NCBI RefSeq assembly: GCF_000633535.1
Contig: NZ_AYMR01000007.1
Coordinates: forward strand, 124,001-188,000
Reading direction: 5' to 3'
DNA from: Leifsonia aquatica H1aii
GTDB taxonomy: Bacteria > Actinomycetota > Actinomycetes > Actinomycetales > Microbacteriaceae
Length of the DNA: 64,000 nucleotides
The first letter of the stretch is position 1. Each line of letters starts with the position of its first letter. Positions 2,899-63,576 of this stretch are shown here, piece after piece. The position numbers were made by a program, and so were the translations under genes. The notes below the pieces were generated by a model. It did not search any database and was not told the origin of the DNA. It saw only the letters and a program-made list of their open reading frames with translations.

Positions 2899-2905
2899 CC
2901 CGCTC

Positions 2906-4762: not shown

Positions 4763-4780
4763 ACGCGAGGAGATCACGAC

Positions 4781-5797: not shown

Positions 5798-5827
5798 CCG
5801 TGCCGCCCGCCCGTTCCGCTCCGCAAG

Positions 5828-5892
5828 CCGCCGAGCACGCGAATTCTCCGCGTACTCGGCGGTTTCGCCCCCACTTTCCGCGTACTCGGCGG
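5828..5892. repeat. Palindromic intergenic repeat, family A copy 2
   Basis: The arms 5828-5841 and 5849-5862 match with one mismatch. A third arm, CCGCGTACTCGGCGGTT, follows near 5878-5892. The copy at 2832-2898 has the same core GCGTACTCGGCGG and the same spacer hallmark CACTT. It lies between convergent genes. Confidence 0.82.
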
Positions 5893-5920
5893 TTCGTCGG
5901 TGCGCGGCGGGAGGAGCGGC

Positions 5921-24039: not shown

Positions 24040-24219
24040 GAGGACTGACACCCGAAATGGGGTACAGCTTCGGCTTTCCTGTGAGCGGTCGATGACGATA
24101 GGAATGAATAACGGAGGTACTCCTGGGACCCGACCGAGGAGTCGCCGATACGGGGGCTCACCCGACGCTGCCCCTGATCGGTGTTGCCCGAGCCTCCGTG
24201 TACCCGAATCGCTGGTCCC

Positions 24220-30200: not shown

Positions 30201-30513
30201 GAAGCTGCGGAAGGGGGCGTCCATCGACCTGCATGTGGTGCTGACCTACGCGGCCGAGGGCTATCCCGTCAACCACGCGAAGGTGACGGTGCCGCCGGTC
30301 GGGCCGTGGCAGCCTCCGCAGGTCGACAACGCCTGCACCGACGACGGATCCGCGGCCTGCTCGCAGATCTACGTCGACCCGCCGGTCCCCGCCACGCCCG
30401 GGACGCTGGCCTCGACAGGCTCCACCGGCGACGTCCTGCTCGTCGTCCTGTGGGCGGGCGTCCTGGCGCTCGTCGGCGCCGCCCTGGTCGGGTGGAGGCG
30501 CCGCCGGGCCTGA
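24220..30513 (+). CDS. Giant secreted repeat adhesin, DUF11/DUF5979 modules, LASTG sortase anchor
   Basis: This is a surface protein of about 2,097 residues. A signal peptide ends in VGGGMVATPALA. Then come repeated beta-rich modules of roughly 120-160 residues with the recurring pattern D-x-F-x-N-A-F near the start and I-T-G-I/L-R-F-x-F near the end. A conserved-repeat DUF11-like module (TYTITVTNIGSIDATAFSAS), a DUF5979-like module (LRVDKVLAGA, then GSRCVVTEAG), the motif LASTG, a hydrophobic helix and the tail WRRRRA complete it. It should be anchored to peptidoglycan by a class E sortase that reads LAxTG; no sortase gene is in the window. The start is uncertain: GTG 24220 or GTG 24181, both without a Shine-Dalgarno. 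The 180 nt upstream show no convincing promoter. Confidence 0.88.
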   Translation: MLRRVFLHARNPFTTRSTARHRGRSQARRAPSLKAAGFVAAGLALALVGGGMVATPALAATASLTVDKKVDGKEATTIVPGAEFTYTIMVGCDDNDCTGATLTDPLPAQFAGFPIVSSAVTPASKPATATFSGCDTTVTANCSLTVKFEDVLPSGGTGIRAGDTYRVVLTLKAPQDLTPAWPSNGVAITNTARGTSETTDPVTNSADVTVDIATKVDVSVAKTWTPATQQFQPGAVSTVSLTTGNTSNVPATTLVLQDPVSANDGATALDAGNPFALVDFSGFGGTTLPQGAATVQVSAYAFDSGTGKWAWTTGPPAATAALPAGVSPGDVGGLRFTFASADGAQIAAGGAAGSVGVLVAQRSTNRVTGSGLVTGASTTNTVSSTVTVPGQDPVTKTASAPYAIGGLTVAVVAGKTIDPARIPGGATATARISGKNTSNGTVDTLTLSDLDYFTDTLGFGGFAAPISYPAGATGATITWHASDGQTISVPVADQSTPAVPPLGTGAHLTGFELTYTGAIAASAQADATFLIAPSLDFASPTSPKNAPNTVAVSATNGAGTATKSATAPLAVYEPDIKLAISKSITPSAPVSPGSTVVAQLPTTTSTDSAYVRPDTIVVEDVWRPGTADDFFNAFDPIAIAATQVPLGSTMTVQYTTDGTTWQTLTIVDARSQAQVYRGNLPAELKGSITGLRFTFQNPSGFAQGTTVRPAITAQARADLRSGDGPTSVADKAASSYTNLGTATASGVVGGERIDADPVTATATGRIQSTSGQGTLGAAKKWTKPDLTGDVTELDSQSGQKAGTVLSWGVTTTGYSRIEIVDPASVGGGISPVFQAFDLLQVSPMSYTSQPLLRWDSVTAVQLYRSGVWQTVTAPTGGWMTATGFAGYTLSPQETADTTGVRFVVEPNDAARATTTDPTAPPVGSGIATVPFGQSRAFGLVWQLRNVQRDVVDPAHPWVTAGSVQNTVGVTGVLDGDVVGPVTGEDTVVLLDQPPLVSLDKTSSRSTIVVPHLGDVDPAAYPTNSFTLTAKNQSTARASYIRVTDPSPCSAGQEGSCLSAATDWAADPFAGATYTAANTFERFDLTRIVSTAPADQVDVDATKVTLWHRAADGTTSVSVVSLRTATGYAAADLADVVGVSVVYQGASPQTTGGTIESGTSLVLTLETRVRATVRSGTAAVTAATVDNHAFAQGYDPVLFPSGQGSQPSDADDATVALTTAVLDVTAAKSISPTSLLERDRHAPVAVTLTATQGASTAATQQVTITDDDADFWNAFALTGLAPSDVTLPAGADQVRVDVKTDGGSTWIAGVPSATASLPTAAVGSITGIRFVFSRADGGLLSRTAVPGTYTARAVLHVGLLDTARDGSAIAFPSRVDDTVQTLTHRSDDPVVYADKTASADAGIRLDPGTFSLDVAKAPQDNVHTVSVGDTVPWTITFANTGTGYLDVTRLTDTLPTALAWDGEKPTYATSAGGSLSTSPTFSADTASGTLTLTWPTGASRMAPGERFTVTLGLVLEPGLKDTDRATNRFTVSTAQSLATCTNQSGNGQGVLTSLPATECGSSNYVQPVTGPSLFTTNGVKGDVTGSVKRGAVNLTDPSATCTVDKYGYYTSPCAANTVVGGTDEWRLGAVNSGTVPYTSLTLVEPLPTPGDRMLATGAGRGSTYRPVFAGIDSLATSAPAGTTVTVEVTTADSPEVCVGTGATAWPSDPTCSAHPDASGWTNAAGYTGDWAAVTGIRVTLDFTTTADGQLPAGGAIAVTYRTIDRPATAADPTGAPVSIDAGTSVAWNQFGATATLSGGIGTIRRAPVKAGVTLATGPLRVDKVLAGAAAATAPEEFTADIECTVAGAPVDLGAAAHTVLSRSTGLTARIDGIPVGSRCVVTEAGDDGSYGEAARSVDNGTIDVDSAAVDGDVPTAQIATITNTFEYGRLEITKTASTAIAGMNAPVTYTITVTNIGSIDATAFSASDQLPAGATFVSADQGGVLKDGVVTWPIAKLRKGASIDLHVVLTYAAEGYPVNHAKVTVPPVGPWQPPQVDNACTDDGSAACSQIYVDPPVPATPGTLASTGSTGDVLLVVLWAGVLALVGAALVGWRRRRA

Positions 30514-41781: not shown

Positions 41782-45279
<3,498 letters not shown>

Positions 45280-45328: not shown

Positions 45329-49204
<3,876 letters not shown>

Positions 49205-49805: not shown

Positions 49806-51470
49806 GTGGCGTCCATGACCGAGATCCTGATCCTCCACGGCCATCTGCCGATCGAGTACCTGGACACGGTGTCCAGCGAGCCCGCTGCCGACGAGTCGAC
49901 CGTGCGCGACCTCCTCGCGCGCGGGGCGATCACGGCCGGCCAGGTGGCGCGGGCGCGGGCTGCGCAGTCCGGCCTCCCGTTCGTCGAACTCGCCGACTAC
50001 CCGGTGGACCGCGCCGCGGTCGGGCTCATCCCTGGCACGCTCTGCCGGCGGCACGTCGTCCTGCCGATCGGGGTCCGGGACGGCACGGTCGTCCTGGCCA
50101 TGGCCGACCCGGGCAACGTGTTCGCCATCGACGACGTGCGTGCGGCCTCTCGGATGGGCGTGGCACCGGCGGTCGCCGACGTCCCGGACCTGCTCGCCGC
50201 GATCGACCGCTACGTGCGCGCCGACGACGAGCTGAGCGACCTCACCACGACGCTGGAGGAGGAGAGCGCGCCCGTCGAGGACACGTCCTTCGCCGACTCG
50301 GGCGACGACGACGCCCCGATCGTGCGGTTCGTGAACCTGCTCGTCAGCCAGGCCATCCAGGACCACGCCTCCGACATCCACATCGAGCCCGCCGAGCACG
50401 ACGTGCGCGTCCGCTACCGGATCGACGGTGTGCTGCACGCGATGCAGAGCGCGCCGAAGGCCATCCAGAACGGCGTGATCTCGCGCCTCAAGATCATGAG
50501 CGACATCGACATCGCCGAGCGGCGCAAACCGCAGGACGGCCGCATGTCGGTCGTGCACGGCGGCCGGCAGATCGACCTGCGCGTGGCGACCCTGCCGACC
50601 GTCTGGGGCGAGAAGGTCGTCATGCGCATCCTGGACAACACCAACACGGGCATGACCCTGCGCGACCTCAACCTGCTCGAGCGCAACTTCGAGACCTACC
50701 GCGCCTCCTACTCCAAGCCGTACGGGATGATCCTGGTCACCGGGCCCACCGGCTCCGGCAAGTCCACCACCCTCTACACGACGCTGAACGCCGTCGCCCG
50801 CCCCGAGATCAACGTCATCACCGTCGAGGACCCGGTCGAATACCGGATGCCCGGCGTCAACCAGGTGCAGGTCAACCCGAAGGCCGGCCTCACCTTCGCC
50901 AGCGCGCTCCGCAGCATCCTGCGCAGCGACCCGGATGTGGTGCTGCTCGGCGAGATCCGGGACCACGAGACCGCGCAGATCGCGATCGAGGCCTCCCTGA
51001 CCGGCCACCTCGTGCTCTCCACCCTGCACACCAATGACGCTCCGAGCGCCGTCACCCGTCTCACCGAGATGGACATCGAGCCCTTCCTCGTCGGCTCGGC
51101 CCTCGACTGCGTCGTCGCCCAGCGTCTCGCCCGGCGGCTCTGCGACCGGTGCAAGCAGCCGGCGGCCTACAGCGCCGACGATCTGCGCCGCCTCCGCTTC
51201 CCCCTCCCGGACGATCAGCCGGTCCCGCCCGTCTTCATGCCGGTCGGCTGCCCCACCTGCTCCAACACCGGGTACCGCGGGCGGATCGCGGTGCACGAGG
51301 TCATGGCCGTCACCGAGGAGATCGAGCGGCTGGCCGTGCAGCGCGCATCGAGCGCTGAGATCGCCCGGGTGGCGCAGGCACAGGGGATGCTGACGCTGCG
51401 CGCCGACGGCTGGGAGAAGGCCAAGCTCGGCCTGACGTCCGTGGAAGAGATCCTTCGAGTGGTGGCCTAG
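49806..51470 (+). CDS. pilB: Type IV pilus extension ATPase PilB
   Basis: This is a 554-residue GspE/PulE/PilB-family hexameric ATPase that drives pilin polymerisation at the inner face of the membrane. An MshEN-like N-terminal domain (about 20-130) is followed by the ATPase: SDIHIEPAEHDVRVRYRIDG, Walker A GPTGSGKST (Lys319), Asp box VITVEDPVEY, Walker B-like DPDVVLLGEIRD, His box TGHLVLSTLHTNDAPSA. The tetracysteine zinc site (CDRC and CPTC) is typical of PilB and absent from PilT. GTG 49806 is chosen for GAGGAGG 5 nt upstream. It is the first gene of the pilus operon. Confidence 0.94.
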   Translation: MASMTEILILHGHLPIEYLDTVSSEPAADESTVRDLLARGAITAGQVARARAAQSGLPFVELADYPVDRAAVGLIPGTLCRRHVVLPIGVRDGTVVLAMADPGNVFAIDDVRAASRMGVAPAVADVPDLLAAIDRYVRADDELSDLTTTLEEESAPVEDTSFADSGDDDAPIVRFVNLLVSQAIQDHASDIHIEPAEHDVRVRYRIDGVLHAMQSAPKAIQNGVISRLKIMSDIDIAERRKPQDGRMSVVHGGRQIDLRVATLPTVWGEKVVMRILDNTNTGMTLRDLNLLERNFETYRASYSKPYGMILVTGPTGSGKSTTLYTTLNAVARPEINVITVEDPVEYRMPGVNQVQVNPKAGLTFASALRSILRSDPDVVLLGEIRDHETAQIAIEASLTGHLVLSTLHTNDAPSAVTRLTEMDIEPFLVGSALDCVVAQRLARRLCDRCKQPAAYSADDLRRLRFPLPDDQPVPPVFMPVGCPTCSNTGYRGRIAVHEVMAVTEEIERLAVQRASSAEIARVAQAQGMLTLRADGWEKAKLGLTSVEEILRVVA

Positions 51471-51478
51471 GAGGGCAC

Positions 51479-53122
51479 ATGACGATCGATGACAACGCCT
51501 GGGGCGGCTATCCCGCGCCGACGGCCAAGCCGCTGTACGAGATCCCCGTCGTCCCGCCCGGGGCGACCGCTGACGGCTGGGCCCCCGGCGCCGGCGTGCC
51601 GCTGCAGCCGCCGACCTACGTGGCCCCGCCGGCGCCGCCGCTTGCGCCGCCGGCCTCGCCGCTCACGCCGCCGGCTGCGCCGCTCGCGTCGCCGATCGCC
51701 GCGCTCCCTCCGGTCGCGGCGTCACCCGCTGCGGCGCCGCTCCCTCCCGCGCCGCAGCCGGCGGCCCCGCCCGCCGCGGAGTTCCCGGCCCCCACCCTCT
51801 ACTCGCTCGACGAGGTTCCGGCCGGTCCTCGTCTGGTCCCGGCGGGCCGTCGGGCGGCCGTCGTCGCGGAGCAGGCAGCCGCCGCTCAGACGAAACCCGT
51901 CCCGCATCCCGACATCGACTACGACGCCGAGGTCGCCACCCTGACGGCCGCCGAACGCGAGGCCCTCGAGAAGGCGGACCCCGAGCTCGTCGCCGCGCTG
52001 CGGGAGGTCGTGCTCCAACGCGCCTCCGACCTCCACGTCACCGTCGGCGCGCCGCCGATGGTCCGCATCGACGGCGCGCTGACACCTGCCGGCCCCGCGG
52101 AGCCATGGGGACACGAGCGCACCCTTGCCGCGCTCACCAGCCTCCTCACCGAGCGGCAGGCCGAGCTGTTCAAGCGCGAGCTCGAGCTCGACTTCGCCTT
52201 CACCATCTCGGCGAACTCCCGCTTCCGCGTCAACTTCTACCAGCAGCGCGGCTCCGTCGGCGCCGCCTTCCGTCTCATCCCGACCGAGATCAAGCAGTTG
52301 CGCGAGCTCGGCGTCCCGGAACAGATCGGCGGCTTCTCGACGCTTCCCCGCGGCCTCGTCCTCGTGACCGGCCCCACCGGCTCCGGCAAGTCCACGACGC
52401 TGGCCGCCCTCATCGACCTCGTCAACTCCACCCGCGCCGACCACATCGTGACGGTCGAGGACCCGATCGAGTTCATGCACACCCACAAGCGCTCGATCGT
52501 CAACCAGCGCGAGGTCGGCCACGACACCCACAGCTTCAACAACGCCCTCAAGCACGTCCTCCGCCAGGACCCGGACGTCATCCTCATCGGCGAGCTCCGC
52601 GACCTGGAGACGATCTCCGTCGCCCTGACCGCGGCCGAGACGGGCCACCTCGTGTTCGCCACCCTGCACACCCAGGACGCCCCGCAGACGATCGACCGCG
52701 TCATCGACGTCTTCCCGCCCCACCAGCAGGACCAGGTGCGCGCCCAGCTCGCCGGCACCCTGCAGGGCGTCGTCTGCCAGACCCTCGTCAAACGCGCCTC
52801 CGGCCGCGGCCGCGTGGTGGCGACCGAGGTGCTGATGATGACCCCGGCGATCGCCAACCTGATCCGCGAGGGCAAGACCTACCAGATCGCGTCCGCCATG
52901 CAGGCGGGTCGCGGGGACGGGATGCACACGATGGACCAGCATCTGGCGGAGCTGGTCAACGTGGGCGCGATCACTCGTAAGGCCGCGCTGGAGAAGGCGC
53001 ACGACCTGGAGAGCATCACGCGGCTGATCCAGCGCGTGGAGTCGCCGGGCGACGCTTCGGGGCGTGCGATGGCATCGGGCGGCCCGGACTACGGGGACTC
53101 GTACTCAGGGATGGTGCGGTGA
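51479..53122 (+). CDS. pilT: Type IV pilus retraction ATPase PilT with Pro/Ala-rich N-terminal extension
   Basis: This is a 547-residue retraction ATPase. The core (from about residue 165) has ASDLHVTVGAPPMVRIDG, Walker A GPTGSGKSTT (Lys304), VTVEDPIEF, DPDVILIGELRDLETI, TGHLVFATLHTQDAPQT and the PilT signature AIANLIREGKTYQI near the C-terminus. The first 160 residues are unusual: long runs of Pro/Ala (APPAPPLAPPASPLTPP), probably disordered; ordinary PilT is about 350 residues. It lies 8 nt after pilB and overlaps pilC. Its presence predicts retractile pili. Confidence 0.93.
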   Translation: MTIDDNAWGGYPAPTAKPLYEIPVVPPGATADGWAPGAGVPLQPPTYVAPPAPPLAPPASPLTPPAAPLASPIAALPPVAASPAAAPLPPAPQPAAPPAAEFPAPTLYSLDEVPAGPRLVPAGRRAAVVAEQAAAAQTKPVPHPDIDYDAEVATLTAAEREALEKADPELVAALREVVLQRASDLHVTVGAPPMVRIDGALTPAGPAEPWGHERTLAALTSLLTERQAELFKRELELDFAFTISANSRFRVNFYQQRGSVGAAFRLIPTEIKQLRELGVPEQIGGFSTLPRGLVLVTGPTGSGKSTTLAALIDLVNSTRADHIVTVEDPIEFMHTHKRSIVNQREVGHDTHSFNNALKHVLRQDPDVILIGELRDLETISVALTAAETGHLVFATLHTQDAPQTIDRVIDVFPPHQQDQVRAQLAGTLQGVVCQTLVKRASGRGRVVATEVLMMTPAIANLIREGKTYQIASAMQAGRGDGMHTMDQHLAELVNVGAITRKAALEKAHDLESITRLIQRVESPGDASGRAMASGGPDYGDSYSGMVR

Positions 53123-54348
53123 TGTCGAATGCGACTGCGTTCGTCTACAAGGGGCGGAACGCCGACGGCAAGGTGGTGAAGGGCAAGCTCGACGCACCCG
53201 GCGAAGCCGCGGTGGCCGCACGGCTGCGAACGATGGGTCTCTCACCGATCGCCATCGAGAAGGCGCCGGAGGCGACCGGGCTGAACCGTGAGATCAATCT
53301 GAGTCTCGGGAGCGGTGTCGGACTGAAGGACCTCGCCGTGGCCAGCCGCCAGATGGCCACCATGATCGGCGCGGGACTCTCGTTGCTCAAGACGTTGAAC
53401 ATCCTCGCGGATCAGACGGCGAACAAGAAGCTCGCGACCGTGCTCGGGAGAGTTCGAGACGATGTCGAGACGGGCGTGTCGGTGGCCGACGCCATGCGCA
53501 AGGACGAGGCGATCTTCACACCGCTGATGGTCAACATGGTGCGTGCGGGTGAGACCGGAGGCTTTCTCGACGGTGCGCTTGAGTCGGTCGCGGCGAACTT
53601 CGAGAAAGAGGTGAAGCTCCGCGCCACGATCAAGTCCGCCCTGACGTATCCGATCATCGTCTTCATCATGTCGATCGTCGCCGTGGTGGCGATGCTGATC
53701 TTCATCGTGCCGGTGTTCGAGAACATGTTCAAAGGCTTCGGGAAGGAGCTCCCCCTTCCCACGCAGATCCTCGTCCTCCTCTCCCATGCGATGGTCTGGG
53801 TCGTTCCCGTGCTTCTGGTCGGGGGCGTCATCTTCGCCGTCTGGTGGAACAAGAACAAGAACGAGGAGCGAGTACGCCGCCGGATCGATCCGCTGAAGCT
53901 CCGGCTCCCCGTCTTCGGGATGCTGCTCAAGAAGATCGCGATCGCACGATTCGCCCGAAACTTCTCCAACATGATCGGGGCCGGTGTGCCCATCCTGAGG
54001 GCGCTTCAGATCGTCGGTGAGACCAGCGGCAACTGGGTGATCGAGAACGCTTTGGGGGCAGTACGAGAAGGCGTTCGCCAAGGCGAGGCGATCGCTGCTC
54101 CGCTGGCCCAGCAACCGGTCTTTCCCGCCATGGTGACGCAGATGGTCGCGGTCGGCGAGGACTCGGGGTCGTTGGAGACGATGCTCTCGAAGATCGCCGA
54201 CTTCTACGAGCAAGAAGTCGCGGCGGCGACCGAGCAGCTCACGGCGATGATCGAGCCGCTCGTGGTCGCCTTCCTCGGCGTGATCATCGGCGGCATGGTG
54301 ATCGCTCTCTACATGCCGATCTTCCAGATTGCGACAGTGGTCAAGTAG
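53122..54348 (+). CDS. pilC: Type IV pilus platform protein PilC
   Basis: This is a 408-residue polytopic platform protein with two T2SSF domains: LKDLAVASRQMATMIGAGLSL near residue 70, and ARFARNFSNMIGAGVPILRAL near residue 275. Membrane helices follow each (YPIIVFIMSIVAVVAMLIFIVP, VWVVPVLLVGGVIFAVWW, VVAFLGVIIGGMVIALYMPIF). PilC couples PilB/PilT rotation to pilin movement. The ATG overlaps the pilT stop (TGATG); GTG 53119 is an alternative start. A 176-nt gap with a structured leader follows before pilA. Confidence 0.94.
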   Translation: MSNATAFVYKGRNADGKVVKGKLDAPGEAAVAARLRTMGLSPIAIEKAPEATGLNREINLSLGSGVGLKDLAVASRQMATMIGAGLSLLKTLNILADQTANKKLATVLGRVRDDVETGVSVADAMRKDEAIFTPLMVNMVRAGETGGFLDGALESVAANFEKEVKLRATIKSALTYPIIVFIMSIVAVVAMLIFIVPVFENMFKGFGKELPLPTQILVLLSHAMVWVVPVLLVGGVIFAVWWNKNKNEERVRRRIDPLKLRLPVFGMLLKKIAIARFARNFSNMIGAGVPILRALQIVGETSGNWVIENALGAVREGVRQGEAIAAPLAQQPVFPAMVTQMVAVGEDSGSLETMLSKIADFYEQEVAAATEQLTAMIEPLVVAFLGVIIGGMVIALYMPIFQIATVVK

Positions 54349-54524
54349 ACGTGCCCAACCTGGGGGTCAGTTGCAAAATTCATCCCTCTAACTGGGGTAA
54401 TTCTTGGGAGAAAAACCCCCCAATCGTGGGATTCTGCCGAGATTTTGCTCCGAATTACCATCAAGCCACCGGACGGGGACTCGCACCCTTCCGTATCGAT
54501 TCCCCCGACCGAATGGAAACCGAA
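54349..54524 (+). promoter_or_regulatory. Structured, comparatively AT-rich leader before pilA
   Basis: GGTAATTC (54396-54403) pairs perfectly with GAATTACC (54452-54459). Inside, TTGGG (54404-54408) can pair with CCCAA (54419-54423), or CCCA (54419-54422) with TGGG (54427-54430); the two are mutually exclusive. This could be a regulatory RNA or hold the pilA promoter; TTGCAA at 54371 is a possible -35 without a clear -10. Confidence 0.5.
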
Positions 54525-54956
54525 ATGTACTTCCGACTCATGGGCAAGCTGAACGCTCGCCGCAAAGGCATGCTCGAGGAGAACGAGAACGGGTTCACCC
54601 TGATCGAGCTCCTCGTGGTGGTCATCATCATCGGCGTCCTCGCCGCAATCGCGATCCCGGTCTATCTCGGGGTCCAGAGCGGCGCGAAGGACAACGCCGT
54701 CAAGGCCGACCTCACCAACCTCAAAACGGCCGCGGTTGCTTTCGAGACGTCGCACAGCGGCGCACTGCCCACGTCGATCACGGATCTCACCAGTTCGGTG
54801 ACCATCAACGGCGACAACTACACCGTCACCCCGAAGCTCAGCTCGTCTGGCACGGGGTCGACCGCGACGTTCACCATTTGCGCTACCGGCAACAACGGAA
54901 ATTCGTGGAAGGTCACCGATACCACGGCGCCCGCCACTGCCACTTCCTGCCCGTAA
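54525..54956 (+). CDS. pilA: Major type IV pilin PilA
   Basis: This is a 143-residue prepilin. The class III leader of 23 residues ends NENG, and cleavage before Phe gives FTLIELLVVVIIIGVLAAIAI, with Glu5 and the classic hydrophobic assembly helix. The C-terminal globular domain is small and Thr/Ser-rich with two Cys (TFTICATG and TSCP) that can form the usual disulfide loop. ATG 54525 is chosen for GGAA 6 nt upstream; ATG 54513 and 54540 are alternatives. An in-frame extension further upstream is open but runs through the structured leader and is unlikely to be translated. Confidence 0.92.
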   Translation: MYFRLMGKLNARRKGMLEENENGFTLIELLVVVIIIGVLAAIAIPVYLGVQSGAKDNAVKADLTNLKTAAVAFETSHSGALPTSITDLTSSVTINGDNYTVTPKLSSSGTGSTATFTICATGNNGNSWKVTDTTAPATATSCP

Positions 54957-54970
54957 CTTCACCCTGCGAA

Positions 54971-55008
54971 GCGGGGGCGGGGAGCCGAGCTCGGCGCCCC
55001 GCCCCCGC
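54971..55008 (+). terminator. Very strong hairpin between pilA and the minor pilin genes
   Basis: GCGGGGGCGGGG (54971-54982) pairs with CCCCGCCCCCGC (54997-55008), and the enclosed GCCGAGCTCGGC is itself a palindrome, so almost all 38 nt pair. No U-tract. It probably terminates most transcripts after pilA, giving excess major pilin. Confidence 0.75.
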
Positions 55009-55062
55009 TGCATAGGTCCTCGTCCCACCCACCACCCGAACCCGATCCGAGGGAGGTGACCG

Positions 55063-56460
55063 ATGTTCCGCATTCAGTTCAGCCCCCGCCCCTGTTCTTC
55101 TTCGGACGCCGGCTTCTCCCTGATCGAGGTCATGGTCGCGATGTTCATCTTCGCCGTCGTCTCCCTCGCTTTCGCCTCCGCTCTCCTCACGACCATGCAG
55201 GTCTCCAGCGACTCACTCGCCCGTCAGACGGCGAGCAGCCTGGCCGCAGGCCAGATCGACCAGGTCAGGACCATCACCGATCTGACCGCGCTGGACTCGT
55301 CATCCGCTCCGACGGATGTCTCGGTGGCGGGGCGCGTCTATCACGTCTCCACCATCGTGCGCTGGACCGGTGCGGGGTCCGGGACCGACGCCCAATGCAG
55401 TTCCGGGACGGGGCCGCTCTTGAACAAGGCGGTCAAAGTCGTCGTCTCGTGGGACGGAATGGCCGCCTCATCTCTTCCAGCGGAAGCGGACACCGTCGTG
55501 GCACCCAAGAGCCGGATCAGCGACGTCAACAAGGGTGTGATCATCGTTTCCGTCAAGAACGCCCAGGGTGCCGGCAACTCCGCCGTCGCGATCTCCGTCG
55601 TTCCCAATCCCACGACGCCCAACGGTGCCTCGGCCATCTCAGGCACGATCGATCCGACCGACGCGCAGGGGTGCGGGTACGTCCTGAACGTCACGCCGGG
55701 CAAGTACGACGTCTCCATCACCAAGGGCGGGACCTCGACTCCCTCGGTCGATATCACGCAGTCCACCTCGCCGAAGCAGACCGTCGATGTGAGCGCTGGA
55801 GCCACGGCGACGGCGCCGTTCCAGTTCGACCAGTCCGCGACGTTCATCCCTCACTACGCCAGCAACGTCACGGGCACCGTCGTCCTCCCTCTGACGATGG
55901 ACACGACGTTCGTGAACACCTACGGCATCTTCACCACGACGTCCACCCCGACCCGACTCCACCCGTTCACGGCCGGATACACGGTGCTCGCGGGAGCTCT
56001 CGGCGTCAACGGCGGGACCGCTTCCAATTGCCTTGCCGTCGATCCTGGTGCTTGGCCCGCGACGACCGATTCGACCGGGACGTGGGCGGGAAAGCGTCCG
56101 GACGCGGTCGCGGCCGCCCCAGGAGGGTCGGCGGACGCGTACGTACCGATGGGGGCAGTCACCGTGTCCGGTCCGGCGAACGGATACCTCGCCGCCGCCG
56201 CGCAGACCACAGGGCCCTCAGGTTCGGGCAACCCGGGATGTGCAGTGCCGAAGACCTACCTCATCAAGCTGCCCGCGACGGGAACGGCGACCATCGCGCT
56301 CCCGTTCGGATCGTGGAAGATGACCAGTGGCACGACGGCAGGCTCGCAGACGACGAAGGTCACCGCGTCACAGCTGGCCCTTGTCACACGTGGCATGCTC
56401 GGGACCGCGAATGGCGACGCCGTTGTCACCTTGGACCCCCGCCAGTTGGTGACGCCGTGA
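55063..56460 (+). CDS. Large minor prepilin (PilV/GspI-like) with carboxypeptidase-regulatory-like domain
   Basis: This 465-residue prepilin has a 17-residue leader ending in SSDAG and the assembly helix FSLIEVMVAMFIFAVVSLAF with Glu5. The motif FSLIEVMVA is typical of PilV/GspI-type minor pilins. Residues from about 165 to 250 (GVIIVSVKNAQGAGNSAVAI ... GKYDVSITKGG) look like a carboxypeptidase-regulatory/Ig-like fold, and the rest is Thr/Ser/Gly-rich with several Cys. It is far larger than ordinary PilV (about 150-180). GGGAGGTGACCG gives a strong ribosome site. It overlaps the next gene by 4 nt. Confidence 0.85.
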   Translation: MFRIQFSPRPCSSSDAGFSLIEVMVAMFIFAVVSLAFASALLTTMQVSSDSLARQTASSLAAGQIDQVRTITDLTALDSSSAPTDVSVAGRVYHVSTIVRWTGAGSGTDAQCSSGTGPLLNKAVKVVVSWDGMAASSLPAEADTVVAPKSRISDVNKGVIIVSVKNAQGAGNSAVAISVVPNPTTPNGASAISGTIDPTDAQGCGYVLNVTPGKYDVSITKGGTSTPSVDITQSTSPKQTVDVSAGATATAPFQFDQSATFIPHYASNVTGTVVLPLTMDTTFVNTYGIFTTTSTPTRLHPFTAGYTVLAGALGVNGGTASNCLAVDPGAWPATTDSTGTWAGKRPDAVAAAPGGSADAYVPMGAVTVSGPANGYLAAAAQTTGPSGSGNPGCAVPKTYLIKLPATGTATIALPFGSWKMTSGTTAGSQTTKVTASQLALVTRGMLGTANGDAVVTLDPRQLVTP

Positions 56461-57143
56461 CGTCAGATCGACGATGTGCGCAGGGAGACGAGGGGATGAC
56501 CGCCGCCGAGTTGGTGATCGCGGCCTTCGTCACCGCGATCGTCCTGGTGATGGTCTCGAGCTTCTTCTTCCGCGGCACGACGGCCATCATGCAGTCCCGA
56601 AACACGGCACTCGACGCGGGAACCGTGTCCAGCGCAATGATGGAGGTCTCCAAGGTCATTCGCTCGGGAGCCCCGAACCCGGTTCTGAACAACTCGCTCC
56701 CGGACCCGGTCGTGCTCGCCGGAACAGCCGAATCCGTGACGATCTACTCCTATGCCGACGCGGCGGTGACCGGTACCAGCCCGATGATCATGCAGTTCTC
56801 CGTCGATCCCACATCGCGACAACTCATGGAGAAGCGCTGGGCGGCGACGTCCAGTACCGGTGGCTATTTCAGCTTCCCGAACTACGCCACTGCGACCCCG
56901 ACCTGGGCCCGCACCATCGCCGGCCCGATCGGGGCGACGCCGTCCGGCAAACCGCCCCTCTTCGTGTTCAACTCGGCAACCGGCCCGATCACGGTCGGCG
57001 GGTCGGGGCTGACCCTCACCCAGCGCAACAGCATCGTGTCGGTGCTGGTGACGATCCGCGTCAACGGAAGTGGGTACGCGGGCGCGACCGGGGCCGAGGA
57101 GCAGAACACCGTCGGACTCCCGAACCTGGGATTGGGGAACTGA
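56457..57143 (+). CDS. Minor prepilin (PilW/GspJ-like)
   Basis: This 228-residue prepilin has a 13-residue leader ending in GDEG, then MTAAELVIAAFVTAIVLVMV with Glu at +5. The +1 residue is Met rather than Phe, which is allowed for minor pilins. The body has RNTALDAGTVSSAMMEVSKVI, the long helical continuation typical of PilW/GspJ, then a beta-rich domain. GTG overlaps the preceding stop (GTGA), and 3 nt separate it from the next gene. Position and order (V, W, X) match GspI-J-K tip complexes. Confidence 0.83.
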   Translation: MTSDRRCAQGDEGMTAAELVIAAFVTAIVLVMVSSFFFRGTTAIMQSRNTALDAGTVSSAMMEVSKVIRSGAPNPVLNNSLPDPVVLAGTAESVTIYSYADAAVTGTSPMIMQFSVDPTSRQLMEKRWAATSSTGGYFSFPNYATATPTWARTIAGPIGATPSGKPPLFVFNSATGPITVGGSGLTLTQRNSIVSVLVTIRVNGSGYAGATGAEEQNTVGLPNLGLGN

Positions 57144-57146
57144 ACA

Positions 57147-58985
57147 ATGTCGATCCACCGCTTGCGCCTCCTCCGTCTCCGTCGACGCGCTGCCCGCGAT
57201 GATCGCGGGGTCGCGCTGGTCAGCGTCCTCGGGATGTCTGCCGTGCTCGTGGTGATGGTCACGATGGGGCTCGCCGTCGCGGCGACGTCGTCGAACACGG
57301 CGTCGACCGACGAGAACTGGGATGCGGCCGGCGCCGCAGCCTACGCAGGGATCTCCGACTACCAGAGCCGGCTCACGAACGACAACACCTACCAGAAGTA
57401 CGGCGACAAGTCCGCGCCATTCAGCGCGTCGACCGGGAGCACGACTCTCGTCCTGCCCACAGGAGCCTTGACGAATCCGGCGTTCGGCTGGATCGACGGT
57501 GGTTCCTGGGCGACCATCCCCGGCGCGACGGGAAACAGGGGCTTCCGCTATGAGATCGACAACTCGAAGTATTCGACCCAGGGCATCATCCGGGTGCTCG
57601 CGACTGGACGATCGGGCGCTGTCACGCGGAGCATCCTCGCAACCGTCCGCCAGAAAGGCTTCATCGACTTCTTGTATTTCACGGACTACGAGGTCCAGGA
57701 CCCCGCTATCACCGGCTATTCCCAGTCTGCGTGTGAGAAGTACTATCCGGCGCGCGTCGACTCCGATTGCGGAGGGGCGATCCAGTTCGGCGCCAGCGAA
57801 GTCGTCGATGGGCCACTCCACTCGAATGACGCTCTCTACATCTGCGGCGGCGACTTCAAGGGAAAGGTGACGAGCAACTACCAAACCGCTCCCTACTACA
57901 GGAACTGCGGTGCGGCCACCTTCGAGCAGGGCGCCCCTGCGCCGGCCGACAAACTCGTGATGCCCCCGACGAACACACAGATGAAGCAGGAGACTCGAGG
58001 CGACCTGACCACCACGGACGTCCCACGTCCAGGATGCCTCTACACGGGACCGACGTCGATCGTCTTCAATTCGGATGGCACCATGACCGTCCGTTCCCCC
58101 TGGACGAAGTTCGTCAACACCAGCGCGACCGGGGGCATGACGAATGCCGCTTGCGGTACGCCTGGGCGCGGGGCGAACGATGGGACGACCCTCGGATCGG
58201 ACGCCGGCCAGAAGATCACCGTGCCGGCCCAGAACCTGGTCTACGTCCAGACCGTGCCCGCCGTCTCGACGGACCCCAACTATTGGGCGCCCGGTGCTCT
58301 GCCATACGCCGGATTCGCGTGCGCAGCCAACGGAAACGGGATCGGATACCCGTATACGACCACCACAGGATCGAACCCGACGACCAATGGGACGACCACG
58401 ACGGAGTCGATCACAGCGACAGGCACCGGAACGAACTACTACGGGTGCTCCGCGGGCGACGTCTTCGTCAAGGGTCAGCTCAAGGGTCAGCTCACGATCG
58501 CGGCGGAGAACTACGTGTGGATCACCGGCAACATCGTGTACACAGACCAGGCGAGCGACATCCTCGGGTTGGTCGGACAGAATGCCATCTGGGTCTGGAA
58601 CCCGATCATCTCCACGACGACCTGCTCGACTGGGCGGTCGGGGACGACCTGCTCCACGGGCAGCTCGTCCAACTACTTGACGGACAGCGCGCGCACGATC
58701 AATGCCGCGATGCTCTCGGTCTCACACACGTTCCAGGTTCAGAACTACGACAAAGGCACGACGCGTGGCAACCTCAACGTTCTCGGGGCGATCGCTCAGA
58801 AGTTCCGTGGGACGGTCGGCACCGTGGGCTCCCGGGCGACGGGGTACACGAAGAACTACAAGTACGACGTACGCTTGCGCAACATCGCACCGCCGAAGTT
58901 CCTGCAGGCCGTGTCGACGACATACGGAGTGACGCAGTACGCGGAGGTAGCCTCGGCCTTCAGCTCGACGGGAGCGGCTCGATGA
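57147..58985 (+). CDS. Large minor pilin-like protein lacking Glu5 (PilX/GspK-like)
   Basis: This 612-residue protein has a basic leader ending in DDRG, then VALVSVLGMSAVLVVMVTMG, where position 5 is Ser, not Glu. Lack of Glu5, the G-x-A-L-V start and large size are features of GspK/PilX, which caps the pilus tip. The rest is Thr/Ser/Asn-rich and carries ten or so Cys in pairs; GGAIQFGASEVVDGPLHSNDALYICGG recalls proteins with beta-helix or adhesin folds. It is 3 nt after the PilW-like gene and overlaps pilD by 4 nt. I infer a tip adhesin. Confidence 0.78.
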   Translation: MSIHRLRLLRLRRRAARDDRGVALVSVLGMSAVLVVMVTMGLAVAATSSNTASTDENWDAAGAAAYAGISDYQSRLTNDNTYQKYGDKSAPFSASTGSTTLVLPTGALTNPAFGWIDGGSWATIPGATGNRGFRYEIDNSKYSTQGIIRVLATGRSGAVTRSILATVRQKGFIDFLYFTDYEVQDPAITGYSQSACEKYYPARVDSDCGGAIQFGASEVVDGPLHSNDALYICGGDFKGKVTSNYQTAPYYRNCGAATFEQGAPAPADKLVMPPTNTQMKQETRGDLTTTDVPRPGCLYTGPTSIVFNSDGTMTVRSPWTKFVNTSATGGMTNAACGTPGRGANDGTTLGSDAGQKITVPAQNLVYVQTVPAVSTDPNYWAPGALPYAGFACAANGNGIGYPYTTTTGSNPTTNGTTTTESITATGTGTNYYGCSAGDVFVKGQLKGQLTIAAENYVWITGNIVYTDQASDILGLVGQNAIWVWNPIISTTTCSTGRSGTTCSTGSSSNYLTDSARTINAAMLSVSHTFQVQNYDKGTTRGNLNVLGAIAQKFRGTVGTVGSRATGYTKNYKYDVRLRNIAPPKFLQAVSTTYGVTQYAEVASAFSSTGAAR

Positions 58986-59845
58986 TCGCCGTAGGCGCTG
59001 CGGGTGCTGCCTCGACCGTGATGGCTCTCGCGGCGGGACTCGCGGCGCTCGGGGTCCTCATCGGTTCGTTCCTGAACGTCGTCGTCTACCGTGTGCCACT
59101 CGGGATGTCCATCGTCCGACCGGCGAGTTCCTGTCCGACGTGCAGCGCCGAGATCAAACGCAGGGACAACGTGCCGATCGTGTCGTGGCTGTTGCTGCGT
59201 GGCAGATGCCGGAGTTGCCGCACGGCGATCTCGCCTCGATACCCCTTGGTCGAGGCCGGCACCGGCGCATTCTTCCTCGTCGTCGCCATCGCGTTCTCCG
59301 CCTCGATCCTCCATCCGACGGCGTCCGGTGCGTCACTCGGCGGACTCCTGTCGATGGTCGCCTACCTTTATCTCGCTGCGATCAGCGTGGCGCTCGCTCT
59401 TATCGATATCGATACGCACCGGCTTCCCAATGCGATCGTGCTGCCCTCGTACCTCATCGGGTTCGTCCTTCTCGCGGCGTCGGCCTTGGTCTCAGGCCGA
59501 CCCGGAATGCTGGTGCCGATGGTCGCAGGCATGGTGATCGCGTTCACGCTCTACCTTGTCCTCTGGCTCGTACATCCCGCCGGCATGGGGTTCGGTGATG
59601 TGAAGCTCGCCGGAGTCCTCGGCCTGTATCTGGGCTTCGTCGGTTGGCCTTCACTCGTCGTCGGCCTTTTCGCGGCCTTCGTTCTCGGCGGTGTGTTCGC
59701 GATCGCCCTGGTCGTACTGCGCAGAGCGGGTCGGCGTTCCGGGATCGCCTTCGGGCCGTGGATGCTCGTCGGCGCCTGGATCGGCGTTCTCGCCGGTGAC
59801 ACGGTGTGGTCGAGCTATATGTCGCTTATCGGTTTCGGGCAGTAA
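58982..59845 (+). CDS. pilD: Type IV prepilin leader peptidase/N-methyltransferase PilD
   Basis: This is a 287-residue polytopic aspartic protease that cleaves prepilin leaders and can methylate the new N-terminus. The cytoplasmic N-terminal zinc domain has CPTC and CRSC within SCPTCSAEIKRRDNVP and RGRCRSCRTAISPRYPLVE. The catalytic aspartates are in ALIDIDTHRLPN and MGFGDVKLAGVLG (GxGD). About eight membrane helices are visible. The start overlaps the preceding stop by 4 nt. It should process the prepilins encoded just upstream. Confidence 0.94.
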   Translation: MIAVGAAGAASTVMALAAGLAALGVLIGSFLNVVVYRVPLGMSIVRPASSCPTCSAEIKRRDNVPIVSWLLLRGRCRSCRTAISPRYPLVEAGTGAFFLVVAIAFSASILHPTASGASLGGLLSMVAYLYLAAISVALALIDIDTHRLPNAIVLPSYLIGFVLLAASALVSGRPGMLVPMVAGMVIAFTLYLVLWLVHPAGMGFGDVKLAGVLGLYLGFVGWPSLVVGLFAAFVLGGVFAIALVVLRRAGRRSGIAFGPWMLVGAWIGVLAGDTVWSSYMSLIGFGQ

Positions 59846-59856
59846 GGAGAGAGATC

Positions 59857-60909
59857 ATGGCGAACAGCATCGTCGGCCTCGACATCGGCAACTCCGTAGT
59901 CAGAGCGGTCGAGGTTTCCGAGTTATCGAAGGCGAAACCGCAGCTTGTGCGATTCCAGGAAGCCGTGCTCCCGGAAGGCGCGGTGAGCAGGGGAGAGGTC
60001 CTCGAGCCGAACACCGTCGCGGCGATTCTCCGGCAGATGTGGGGGCGGGGAGGGTTCCGCACCAAGGATGTTGCGCTCGGCGTCGGCAACCAGCGGGTTC
60101 TCGCTCGAGATCTGACCGTGCCGAAGGGGCCGTTGCAGCACATCAGGGAATCGTTGCCCTTCCATGTGCAGGATCTGCTTCCTGTCCCCGTGGCCGAGGC
60201 GCTTCTCGACTTCTATCCGGTCTCGGAGGGGATAGCGGAGAGCGGCCCTGTCGTCAACGGTCTTCTCGTCGCGGCGGTCAAGGAGGTCGTCCTCGGCAAC
60301 ATCAAGGCCATCGAGCTCGCGGGACTGCACCCTGTCGGAGTCGACCTCATTCCTTTCGCTCTGAACCGGCTCCTGGTCGGTGCGCGCGAAGACGTCTCGG
60401 ACACCGTGGTACTCGTTGACGTCGGAGCTAACACGACGAGCGTCGTGATCTCGTCCAACGGCGCCCCCCAATTCGTCAGGATCATCCCGACGGGAGGCTC
60501 CGAGCTGACCGAGGCACTCCGGTCGACCTTCGACATTCCTGCCGCCGACGCGGAAGCCAGAAAGCGGGCGCTCGGGCTGGCCGCGGAGGCCAACTCGCCG
60601 GACGAGCAGCGCACCCTTGAGGTCATCTATCAGGTGACCGGCGAGCTGCTCAGCAGCCTTCGGAACACCGTCAATTACTATGCGAACACGCGACCCGGTG
60701 ACAGGATGGCCCGGATCGTGCTCACCGGCGGTGGAGCAGATCTCCCCGGTTTCTCATCGGCCCTTGCCGAGATGACTCGGCTTCCCGTCGAGGTCGGCGA
60801 TCCGTTCGCGTCGATCGGGCTCTCGCGACGGGTCGATGCCGGGCAGCTCCGCACCCACCGATCGTCGATCGCCGTCGCGCTCGGCCTCGCACTGTGGAGG
60901 GCAGCATGA
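59857..60909 (+). CDS. pilM: Type IV pilus assembly ATPase-fold protein PilM
   Basis: This is a 350-residue cytoplasmic actin/FtsA-like protein that binds the N-terminal tail of PilN. Phosphate loops are VGLDIGNSVVRAVEV at the start and VLVDVGANTTSVVISSNG in the middle; the adenosine motif is IVLTGGGADLPGF. AAGGAGAGAG precedes the ATG. pilN overlaps by 4 nt. PilM-N-O together form the alignment complex that links the cytoplasmic ATPases to the pilus; the presence of PilM distinguishes this from Tad pili, which lack it. Confidence 0.93.
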   Translation: MANSIVGLDIGNSVVRAVEVSELSKAKPQLVRFQEAVLPEGAVSRGEVLEPNTVAAILRQMWGRGGFRTKDVALGVGNQRVLARDLTVPKGPLQHIRESLPFHVQDLLPVPVAEALLDFYPVSEGIAESGPVVNGLLVAAVKEVVLGNIKAIELAGLHPVGVDLIPFALNRLLVGAREDVSDTVVLVDVGANTTSVVISSNGAPQFVRIIPTGGSELTEALRSTFDIPAADAEARKRALGLAAEANSPDEQRTLEVIYQVTGELLSSLRNTVNYYANTRPGDRMARIVLTGGGADLPGFSSALAEMTRLPVEVGDPFASIGLSRRVDAGQLRTHRSSIAVALGLALWRAA

Positions 60910-61568
60910 GCAGTCAGAAGCCGGTCGAACTGGTCATCGGCGGTGAGCCGAGGGTCGATCTCTTACCGCCGGAGGTTCGCGCGTCCCAGCGGGGCCGGTC
61001 CACGCGACGCATGCTCGTCTACGCGGTGGTCGCCGTCGCCGTCGTCACGGCGGTCGCTGCTGGAGGGTCGACCATCGCCGCCGCTCAAGCGCAGGTGGAT
61101 CTGGTCACTGCTCAATTGGAGACCGGTAGCATCCTGGTCCAGCAGAAGAAGTTCCTCGAGGTGAAAAAGGTACAGAACGACGTCGCCGTGGTGCAGGCAG
61201 GCCAGCAGGTCGGTGCGTCGACGGAGATCCAATGGAAGGACTACCTGGACAAGGTCCAAGGAACATTGCCGTCCGGGGTGGCGATCCAGTCGGTGACGAT
61301 CGAATCGTCGACTCCGCTCGCGGCCTTCGCCCAGTCGACCGTCCCCCTGCAGGGCCCGCGTGTAGCGACGGTGACATTTGAAGTCACCAGCCCCGTGCTC
61401 CCTCAGCTGCCACAGTGGCTGGCCTCGCTTGGGACTCTTCCTGGTTTCGCGGACGCGACTCCGGATGCGGTCACTCTCGACAAGACGACCGATCAGTACA
61501 CGGCCAAGATCACGATGCATGTCAACAGTGCAGCGTTCGACAGCCGCTTCGCAGGCAAGGGGAAGTAG
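60906..61568 (+). CDS. pilN: Type IV pilus assembly protein PilN
   Basis: This is a 220-residue bitopic membrane protein. The cytoplasmic tail has RVDLLPPEV, the PilM-binding motif (usually INLLP). One membrane helix follows (LVYAVVAVAVVTAVAAGG, about 40-60), then a coiled-coil and a ferredoxin-like extracytoplasmic domain. GGAGG lies 7 nt upstream and the ATG overlaps the pilM stop. pilO starts 2 nt after it. Confidence 0.9.
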   Translation: MSSQKPVELVIGGEPRVDLLPPEVRASQRGRSTRRMLVYAVVAVAVVTAVAAGGSTIAAAQAQVDLVTAQLETGSILVQQKKFLEVKKVQNDVAVVQAGQQVGASTEIQWKDYLDKVQGTLPSGVAIQSVTIESSTPLAAFAQSTVPLQGPRVATVTFEVTSPVLPQLPQWLASLGTLPGFADATPDAVTLDKTTDQYTAKITMHVNSAAFDSRFAGKGK

Positions 61569-61570
61569 CC

Positions 61571-62320
61571 GTGGACAAGAACAAGCTGTGGATCATCGGG
61601 GCAGCGCTCGTGATGGTGGCCATCGTTGCCGGCGGGTGGTTCCTCGGAATCCAGCCACAACTCGCAAATGCGGCGGCCGCCGATGCCCAGCGTGCGCAGG
61701 TCGTGGCGGAGAACGCGCGGCAGACGGCTACGCTCGCGAAGCTCAAGACCGCCTATGCGCGGTTGCCGGAACTCAAATCCGACCTGGCGAGCCTGCGGGA
61801 GTCCATTCCCGAGGGCACCGACCTGCCCTCGTTCGTCGATCAAGTGACGGACCTCTGCGCATCGACCGGAGCATCCTTTACCGGTTACACCACAGCTGCC
61901 TCATTGCCATACGTCACGGCTTCGACTGGGAGTTCCGCGACGTCTCCGACCTCGACGGCGACCTCGACGCCCGCTCCCACCTCGGGTGCGACACCGTCCC
62001 CTGCGGCAACGCCGGAGGCGGGGACGCCTCCCGTGACGAACCGACTGGTGACTGAACAGAACTTCGTCGCGACACCGTTGACGGTGACCGTCGAGGGCGG
62101 ATACGCCAATGTGCTCCAGTTCATCAAAGGTCTCCAGACCGGGAAGCGCCTGTTCCTCGTGACGAACGTGCAGACCTCGGCAACGACCGATCCGAGCGCC
62201 GCGGGAACGTTCGACGCCACGGTCTCTGGGCTGATCTACTCCATCGTCGATTCGACACCCATCCCGGCGCCGCCCACGAACGCACCGACGCAGGCCGACG
62301 CATCCGCGAGCAAAGGCTGA
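61571..62320 (+). CDS. pilO: Type IV pilus assembly protein PilO
   Basis: This is a 249-residue bitopic protein, the partner of PilN. One membrane helix (about 5-25, LWIIGAALVMVAIVAGGWFL) is followed by a coiled coil (QRAQVVAENARQTATLAKLK) and a PilO-like domain with DLPSFVDQVTDLCASTGASF. A Ser/Thr/Pro linker (about 115-155) splits it from LTVTVEGGYANVLQFIKGLQTGKRLFLV, a typical PilO core. It ends the pilus locus; no PilP or PilQ follows. Confidence 0.88.
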   Translation: MDKNKLWIIGAALVMVAIVAGGWFLGIQPQLANAAAADAQRAQVVAENARQTATLAKLKTAYARLPELKSDLASLRESIPEGTDLPSFVDQVTDLCASTGASFTGYTTAASLPYVTASTGSSATSPTSTATSTPAPTSGATPSPAATPEAGTPPVTNRLVTEQNFVATPLTVTVEGGYANVLQFIKGLQTGKRLFLVTNVQTSATTDPSAAGTFDATVSGLIYSIVDSTPIPAPPTNAPTQADASASKG

Positions 62321-62341
62321 CCTCCGCCCGCTCCGCCTCCC

Positions 62342-62369
62342 TTCACATCCCGCGGCCCGTTGCTACAGT
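62342..62369 (+). promoter_or_regulatory. Promoter of the Ala/Pro-rich membrane protein gene
   Basis: TTCACA (62342-62347), a 16-nt spacer and TACAGT (62364-62369) lie between pilO and the next gene. A start near 62376 would leave a leader of about 33 nt with GGAGG. Confidence 0.5.
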
Positions 62370-62409
62370 GGGCACCACGATGGCCCGCCGGGCCGCTGGA
62401 GGTGCCACG

Positions 62410-63576
62410 ATGAGCGACACGACGCCTGATCCCGCGTCCGCGGACACGGGAGAGCAGCGGGCGACGCCCGTGGAGCCCGCGACGGGTGCGGCGTCGTCCG
62501 CCGCCGCCGAGCCGCACGACACCGACCCGGAGGTGGCCGATCCGCCGTCGAGTCCGGTCTCGGCCCGCGGGCACGTGAACCGCCCGGCTGCCGAGGCCGC
62601 CGACGAGCAGGCGTCCGCGAAAACGTCGGAGCCCGCTCCTGCTGCGGCACCCGCTCCCGCCGCGGCGCCCGCGCCCGCCGCCGTCACCGCGCCCGAGCCC
62701 GTCGTGAGCACCGAGGACGACATCGCCGCCGCGGTCGCCAGGACCGCCGCCCAGCCGGGAGAGCCGGGTGCCACGGCAGCCGGCACCGCCACGGTCGACA
62801 CCGCCTCGGCCGCCGAGGCCGCCGCTCCGGTCGTGGCCGCCGGCGCGGCCGCAGAGGCACAGACCGCCGCCTACGGGACCGCGCCCGCCTACGGGACCGC
62901 GCCCGCCTACGGGGCCGCCCCCGTCGCGGGTGCGACCTGGGCGCCGGAGCCCACGGGCGCCCCCGTCCCGCTGCAGCCGCAGCCGGTCGCACCGATCTTC
63001 CTGCAGCGTCCCGAACCGCCGAAGCGCAAGAGCAATCGGGGGACCGGGATCCTCATCGTCCTCGTCGGAACGGTGGCGTTCGCCCTGCTGTGGTGCGTCG
63101 CCGTGGTCGTGGTCGACTCGCTGCTGACGCCGAGCAATGACCTGCTGAAGGTGCTGCTCGAGTCCTTCACCCAGGTCTTCGCCGGCTGGGTGCCGATCAT
63201 CGCCTTCTTCGTGGGCATGGTCGTCCTGGTGCAGATCCTGAACCGCGCCCGCTGGTGGGCATACATCCTCGGCGGCCTCGTCGTGGCGGTGTTCGTCTAC
63301 TTCGCCTTCATCGGCGCGTACCTCATCGACGCCCACTACTGGGAGCGGACGCCCGAGGAGTTCGCCATCCTCCTCCGCAGCGCCTGGCTCAACCCGTTCG
63401 CCGTGCTCGCCGGCGTCATCGCCCGCGAGATCTCGGTGTGGACCGGTGCCTGGCTCGCTGCGCGCGGCCGCAAGCTGAAGGCACGCAACGCCGAAGCGCA
63501 GGCGGACTACGAGCAGCAGCTGGCCGACGCGCAGAACCAGGCGGTCGCCGCGTACGCCTCGCAGCAGGGGTACTGA
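62410..63576 (+). CDS. Membrane protein with long Ala/Pro-rich N-terminal region
   Basis: The 388-residue protein has about 210 residues of low-complexity Ala/Pro/Thr, with direct repeats of YGTAPA, then four hydrophobic helices (GILIVLVGTVAFALLWCVAV, GWVPIIAFFVGMVVLVQIL, YILGGLVVAVFVYFAFIGAYL, AVLAGVIAREISVWTGAWL). A charged C-terminal tail ends it. I recognise no family beyond a generic actinobacterial membrane protein; the membrane part is the better conserved region. GGAGG lies 7 nt before ATG 62410. A further membrane gene follows after 10 nt. Confidence 0.72.
   Translation: MSDTTPDPASADTGEQRATPVEPATGAASSAAAEPHDTDPEVADPPSSPVSARGHVNRPAAEAADEQASAKTSEPAPAAAPAPAAAPAPAAVTAPEPVVSTEDDIAAAVARTAAQPGEPGATAAGTATVDTASAAEAAAPVVAAGAAAEAQTAAYGTAPAYGTAPAYGAAPVAGATWAPEPTGAPVPLQPQPVAPIFLQRPEPPKRKSNRGTGILIVLVGTVAFALLWCVAVVVVDSLLTPSNDLLKVLLESFTQVFAGWVPIIAFFVGMVVLVQILNRARWWAYILGGLVVAVFVYFAFIGAYLIDAHYWERTPEEFAILLRSAWLNPFAVLAGVIAREISVWTGAWLAARGRKLKARNAEAQADYEQQLADAQNQAVAAYASQQGY

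Follow-up and report, generated by a model that had tools for sequence, protein, structure and literature searches.

A type IVa pilus locus behind rpoB-rpoC in a relative of Leifsonia, with a tip-plus-base block that is probably replaced by homologous recombination

We describe a type IVa pilus (T4aP) locus in a 64-kb window, the whole stretch of DNA that was analysed. The locus probably encodes a retractile pilus whose tip-plus-base block, pilC-pilO, is replaced by homologous recombination; its assembly, retraction and function, and the selective cause of the exchange, are what we infer. The host genome measures 4.58 Mb, its closest relatives at the pil locus are Leifsonia, and the named relatives are Microbacteriaceae. 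A complete type IV pilus locus had been claimed in the first-pass annotation, and this was confirmed: eleven plus-strand genes with intact catalytic motifs occupy 49,806-62,320, directly behind rpoB-rpoC, in the order pilB-T-C-A-V-W-X-D-M-N-O.

41782-45279, + strand: rpoB, upstream neighbour of the pil locus
45329-49204, + strand: rpoC, upstream neighbour of the pil locus
49806-51470, + strand: pilB, extension ATPase (MshEN + T2SSE), GTG start
51479-53122, + strand: pilT, retraction ATPase, with a Pro/Ala-rich N-terminal extension of ~170 residues
53122-54348, + strand: pilC, platform protein, alternative start GTG at 53,119
54525-54956, + strand: pilA, major pilin, ATG at 54,525, cleavage G^FTLIE
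54970-55009, + strand: GC-rich 13-bp stem in the pilA-pilV gap
55063-56460, + strand: pilV-like minor pilin, GspI-like pilin domain with a CnaB-like and other beta modules
56457-57143, + strand: pilW-like minor pilin, cleavage G^MTAAE
57147-58985, + strand: pilX, predicted ComZ-like/GspK-like tip pilin without Glu5, with a beta-solenoid domain, cleavage G^VALVS
58982-59845, + strand: pilD, prepilin peptidase, methylase Cys pairs present
59857-60909, + strand: pilM, by family match
60906-61568, + strand: pilN, named by position, family evidence weak
61571-62320, + strand: pilO, starting at GTG 61,571

The tight spacing claimed for these genes holds at most junctions, where genes overlap by 4 nt or are separated by no more than 11 nt, and fails at pilC-pilA (176 nt) and pilA-pilV (106 nt), the only two gaps in the operon above 100 nt. 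A stem of at least 15 bp follows pilA in 44 of 87 loci and follows eight other operon genes in 2-21 of 60-93; a laxer criterion for hairpins (MFE under -35, stem 8) had been dropped, with hits after pilA in 78 of 87 loci but also in 26-52 of 60-93 elsewhere. The stem may govern how much major pilin is made relative to the minor ones. Downstream of pilO, 62410-63576 encodes an Ala/Pro-rich membrane protein that has no family match and is conserved in Leifsonia. Rfam and tRNA scans of the 64-kb window gave no match, and the pil locus is therefore not a tRNA-borne island.

Family, motif or fold evidence backs ten of the eleven pil proteins, and PilW is backed by its prepilin N-terminus and its homologues. 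PilB matches T2SSE (1.5e-136) and MshEN (5.8e-20), PilT matches TIGR01420 at 476.5 bits against a cut-off of 319.1, and among solved structures PilB aligns to PilB and PilT to PilT. The length of the PilT N-terminal extension follows from the TIGR01420 match, which begins at residue 171; the extension (51479-51990) varies in length and sequence among relatives. PilC is a single T2SSF protein with two domains (3e-63), PilD matches A24_N_bact (1.2e-33) and Peptidase_A24 (3.4e-15), and PilM matches PilM_2 (3.4e-49) and TIGR01175 (186.6 bits, cut-off 133). N_methyl was matched by PilA (2.9e-8) and by the first minor pilin, PilV (5.6e-8), while the second and third, PilW and PilX, have prepilin-like N-termini and gave no meaningful family match. 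PilO matches PF04350 (4.8e-8, above the family cut-off), and the PilO family was found in 19 of 19 homologues. For the PilN of the window there was no family match, PF05137 was detected weakly in three of 25 homologues (best E 0.016), and a PilN profile against PDB sequences returned chance-level matches only; because PilN has no family match of its own, it is named from where its gene lies, between pilM and pilO. Active-site loss in relatives had been raised as a possible objection; instead, the ATPase and peptidase motifs are kept, with Walker A, Walker B, His box and four Cys of PilB conserved in 66 rows and the key Walker, His-box and peptidase positions 98-100% conserved over 66 PilB, 87 PilT and 94 PilD rows.

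The first-pass reading as T4aP-like is borne out by an extension and a retraction ATPase, a single platform protein, PilM and PilO. Glu5 is present in 88 of 88 PilA, 60 of 60 PilV and 52 of 52 PilW sequences; as in type IVa pili, class III prepilins with Glu5 (tip pilin excepted) go with a prepilin peptidase/methylase, PilM and PilO adjoin the pilin genes, and both ATPases have intact motifs. The annotated lack of a secretin also stood, PF00263 having no match in the genome while the same model matches in 6 of 14 control genomes. Both ATPases, one platform, PilM, PilO and no secretin naturally suggest a T4aP that would cross a monoderm wall and retract. It is highly improbable that the locus is a type II secretion (T2SS) pseudopilus or a Tad/Flp pilus misread as T4aP: the minor pilins do resemble T2SS GspI and GspK and the genome also carries a Tad locus, but PilT scores above its cut-off, the platform gene is single, a secretin is missing, the pilin carries GFTLIE, PilM is present, and neither the Flp pilin nor the two platform paralogues of a Tad pilus were found at the pil locus. 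Whole-genome profile searches returned one PilM, one PilB and one PilT; besides PilB and PilT there is a third clear T2SSE ATPase, of Tad type, on contig C30, and no N_methyl pilins occur outside the pil locus. At 2090-4313 of locus L043, on contig C30, a large serine recombinase gene directly adjoins a Tad ATPase gene whose T2SSE match begins only from position 100 of the profile, which would suit interruption of the Tad locus by a mobile element.

Like the T4aP of Streptococcus sanguinis as excerpts of PMC6916266 and PMC10191384 present it, the locus is a single cluster with PilB/T/C/D/M/O and, by position, PilN, with three minor pilins of modular build and no secretin. Unlike it, the Leifsonia locus has one major pilin gene, a predicted ComZ-like tip, a place behind rpoC, probable block exchange, and a normal-sized PilO that contains a Pro/Thr-rich insert. 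The Tad (Tfpc) pili of Bifidobacterium breve and Micrococcus luteus are likewise type IV superfamily pili in Actinobacteria, and differ in their Flp pilin, their two platform paralogues and their lack of PilM/N/O (PMC6916266, in part). The first-pass statement that the actinobacterial pili under study are Tad-type agrees with Pelicic 2019 (PMC6916266), in a passage of which the Tfp studied there are Tfpc (Tad). The implied rarity of a PilM/N/O pilus with PilT did not survive: at E 1e-3, PilM was found in 98 of 199 family genomes, spread over 50 of 85 genera, and in 240 of 396 genomes of the phylum. The PilT model passed its cut-off in 99 of those 199 family genomes; 96 of the 199 have both, two have PilM only and three PilT only. 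A PilM match alone is not proof of a pilus, because 9 of 14 control genomes match, Escherichia coli included. The rpoC end adjoins pil genes in 10 of 18 examined loci; the others ended too early or were without rpoC. A genome survey, Denise 2019 (PMC6668835, in part), had already placed T4aP in Actinobacteria, and an excerpt of a Curtobacterium genome note (PMC5054313) merely counts 12 type IV pilus genes. An experimental study of an actinobacterial T4aP was not found in the literature searched, which lacked most subscription papers. A complete T4aP in an actinobacterium is supported and not exceptional, being a known kind of pilus in a common host group; in genomes it is widespread, and in the searched literature it is unstudied at the bench.

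The first-pass annotation did not mention the divergent block, the differing tip cassettes or the predicted ComZ-like tip. The evidence for exchange begins with the alignment of the 64 kb to L. aquatica DSM 20146. Outside the pil locus, aligned stretches are 81-92% identical. Within it, pilC falls to ~75%, mostly 64-82%, and pilV-pilO to 70% or less or to no alignment (55-57 kb unaligned, 57-62 kb at 66-70%), with the pilC 3' end and the pilA N-terminus reaching 81-90%. The divergent block has two edges:

53000-53100, no strand: 5' edge, near 53,050, identity dropping from 91% to 67% between neighbouring 100-bp steps
62300-62400, no strand: 3' edge, near 62,350, identity rising from 56% to 77% to 89% in successive 100-bp steps

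Loci L064 and L124 show the same edges as the window against L. aquatica, while for L116 and L128 the drop begins inside pilC. Two other stretches of the window, ~2.8-5.9 kb and 24-30.7 kb, are absent from L. aquatica: the one is a 3.1-kb stretch (~2,803-5,922), and the other holds a gene (24181-30513) for a 2,110-aa surface protein with DUF11 and DUF5979 and, by eye, an LAxTG-like C-terminal anchor. A drop in GC was rejected as proof of import: the blocks of relatives are likewise lower in GC3, a value for which start codons in relatives were called mechanically, some frames being over-extended.

The same profile recurs between relatives. In tblastn searches of the window proteins on 98 loci, PilB identity was high and that of PilV, PilW and PilX low even in close kin. 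The identity table, which includes the window and omits five duplicate loci (L068, L074, L100, L107, L126) and proteins under length limits, covers 66 loci with PilB and 94 with PilM. In 17 disjoint pairs whose PilB identity is at least 92%, median identities were 97% for PilB, 88 for PilT, 87 for PilC, 58 for PilA, 40 for PilV, 33 for PilW, 49 for PilX, 63 for PilD, 71 for PilM, 54 for PilN and 45 for PilO; the two genes downstream of pilO return to 86 and 92 in the pairs that have them. Where PilB identity is at least 95%, PilM lies below 75% in 48 of 56 pairs and at 90% or more in two, and PilX is below 60% in 39 of 45 type A pairs. Across the 17 disjoint pairs, PilM is more than 10 points below PilT in only 10, and PilC likewise in two. 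PilT is also low in some pairs, so the edges of the block vary, and L062/L063 and L078/L083 keep most of it; L062/L063 (PilB 97, PilM 95, PilO 90) give the picture of undisturbed inheritance.

Tip genes differ in kind as well as in sequence. Of 94 loci, the window's included, 60 carry a window-like PilX, 30 another tip protein, and four are untyped; Leifsonia, Cryobacterium and Frigoribacterium each hold both kinds, and L088 and L105 differ in tip kind with PilB 98% identical. At E<=1e-3, a window-like PilX was found in 104 of 398 family genomes, two of these matches being very weak. A clean split into two cassette types, A and B, was rejected: type B tips form one loose BLAST group, yet their domains differ. 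Among 13 non-window-like tip proteins scanned, seven matched Ricin_B_lectin, two matched Bactofilin weakly, below the cut-off, and four matched nothing. In L080 and L139 the tip gene before pilD encodes a longer tip pilin (679 and 655 aa), and that of L139, with no Pfam match, is perhaps a further cassette kind.

Trees were built for PilB, PilT, PilC, PilX, PilD, PilM, PilN and PilO from 38 type A loci with ten genes; the groups tested were named beforehand from PilB identity, and a simpler model was used except for PilX and PilB. The window, L062 and L063 are united by PilB (99.7) and PilT (98.7), and this group is rejected by PilX (p 6e-19), PilC (1e-3), PilO (4e-3) and PilN (0.023, which would fail correction for six tests); PilM (0.198) and PilD (0.269) do not reject it. 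L064 and L124, strongly united by PilB and PilT, are rejected as a group by PilX (3e-43), PilC (2e-4), PilO (2e-4), PilN (1e-3) and PilD (5e-3), PilM (0.07) not rejecting them. For L116 and L128, PilB support is weak (76) and PilX rejects the pair (4e-6).

Because the PilC, PilX, PilN and PilO trees conflict with those of PilB and PilT, recombination is favoured over mere fast evolution. That pilA-pilO simply evolves fast under diversifying selection by phages, predators or surfaces, with vertical inheritance and no exchange, is in our judgement unlikely. It would suit the pilins being the most divergent members, the correlation of 0.79 between PilM and PilB distances in the 38 type A loci, and the PilM and PilD trees that do not reject the vertical grouping of the window with L062 and L063; against it stand, besides the tree conflict, edges within ~100 bp, the fall in identity of platform and cytoplasmic proteins as well, and the switch between non-homologous tip cassettes in L088 and L105. 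We think it similarly improbable that hidden paralogy accounts for the pattern, tandem duplicate loci having lost different copies with no transfer between species. G078 and G193 do carry several PilM and PilT copies close together, but the window's genome has a single PilM, and most genomes listed have one PilM match. Tandem T4aP locus copies, including as many as three neighbouring PilT copies, were seen in L061 and in G078/G193.

Homologous recombination would replace pilins, tip, peptidase and assembly base as a block, the conserved edges being pilT at one end and the genes that follow pilO at the other; the tip cassette would arrive in unrelated versions, and the motors, PilB and PilT, would for the most part be passed on with the chromosome. 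Distances inside the block correlate only moderately (partial correlations 0.14-0.67), and PilM distances still follow PilB; the block is thus not one clean unit, and several overlapping exchanges, or a separate exchange of the V-W-X cassette, are likely. A donor allele was not found: the nearest PilM is 68% identical among 27 other genomes of the genus, and the nearest PilX 54-55% among 398 family genomes, in the genus or outside it. In Pseudomonas aeruginosa, pilin and minor pilin sets vary between strains, and platform, peptidase and PilM-O are not known to vary with them. The variable pilin and minor pilin sets are shared with these allele groups; unlike them, the Leifsonia locus has platform, peptidase and PilM-O inside the variable block.

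The tip itself may bear on how DNA reaches the cell. An AlphaFold model of PilX on 37 homologues (pLDDT 82.6, pTM 0.76) had as its only PDB matches at E<=0.001 three chains of ComZ, 6qvi. By VIA-align, PilX and ComZ gave Z 15.2 over 309 residues but a poor global superposition (rmsd 10.7), followed by solenoid ice-binding proteins (Z 13, rmsd 3.1). In the model, the last strand (592-601) comes after the solenoid. Glu5 is missing from PilX in all 59 type A rows that have a letter at that position and in all 30 type B proteins, and the T2SS tip pseudopilin GspK is known for the same absence. The excerpted account of ComZ (PMC6561018) gives a pilin domain like that of GspK, into which a solenoid is inserted ahead of the final strand, a proposed place at the tip, and a DALI search that matched GspK and an ice-binding protein. 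On these models we predict PilX to be a ComZ-like tip pilin, a pilin domain plus beta-solenoid. Like ComZ of Thermus thermophilus, it would have a GspK-like pilin domain, a beta-solenoid and a last strand after the solenoid; unlike ComZ, it sits in a monoderm host, has PilV and PilW as partners instead of PilA2, and has no detectable sequence similarity to ComZ (identity 10-13%; no ComZ chain up to E 5 with the profile of 37 homologues against PDB sequences). For PilV, the model shows a pilin domain resembling GspI (Z 9.7 to XcpV, 8.7 to EpsI) and, at 156-258, a CnaB-like module. Multi-domain Gram-positive adhesins top its Foldseek results with low TM, and they are read only as CnaB-like modules. 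From the GspI-like PilV and a PilX that lacks Glu5 as GspK does, PilV, PilW and PilX plausibly form an I-J-K-like tip complex, the role of PilW resting on analogy.

Whether such a tip would capture DNA is evenly balanced in our estimate against an ordinary adhesion T4aP whose solenoid tip is not a DNA receptor. In relatives, ricin-lectin tips occupy the same slot, the solenoid has a second likeness in ice-binding proteins, and the comparison with ComZ, at 10-13% identity, is uninformative on DNA-binding residues. Against adhesion alone, ComZ binds DNA in vitro and is required for transformation (PMC6561018, in part), and the genome has ComEA-like and ComEC genes. The check for comEA/comEC suggested in the first-pass annotation located the genes for ComEC and a ComEA-like SLBB-HhH protein side by side on contig C4; they are needed for transformation, and their presence does not demonstrate it.

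In the retractile, block-exchanging pilus that we favour, PilD would process the pilins, a PilV-PilW-PilX complex would start and tip the filament with PilX as a ComZ/GspK-like cap bearing a beta-solenoid, PilB with PilC and PilM/N/O would extend PilA, and PilT would retract the PilA filament; its probable roles are adhesion and DNA capture. More tentatively, and with doubt outweighing belief, the pilus could be a self-renewing competence and recognition locus, whose tip captures the DNA of relatives, which then replaces its own pilC-pilO via the conserved edges. Exchange across genera would then involve not just pilins but a complete compatible haplotype, with tip, peptidase and assembly base included, and would leave the motors in place; pilus-binding phages may be the source of the pressure.

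A ComZ-like tip together with exchange of assembly genes along with the tip is a variant worth testing. If the tip is ComZ-like in a monoderm, tip-borne DNA capture would be separable from the outer membrane. If PilC, PilD and PilM-O travel with the pilins and PilB and PilT do not, a specificity boundary would lie between motors and platform, and the natural variation of the family could reveal which parts of the pilus must match.
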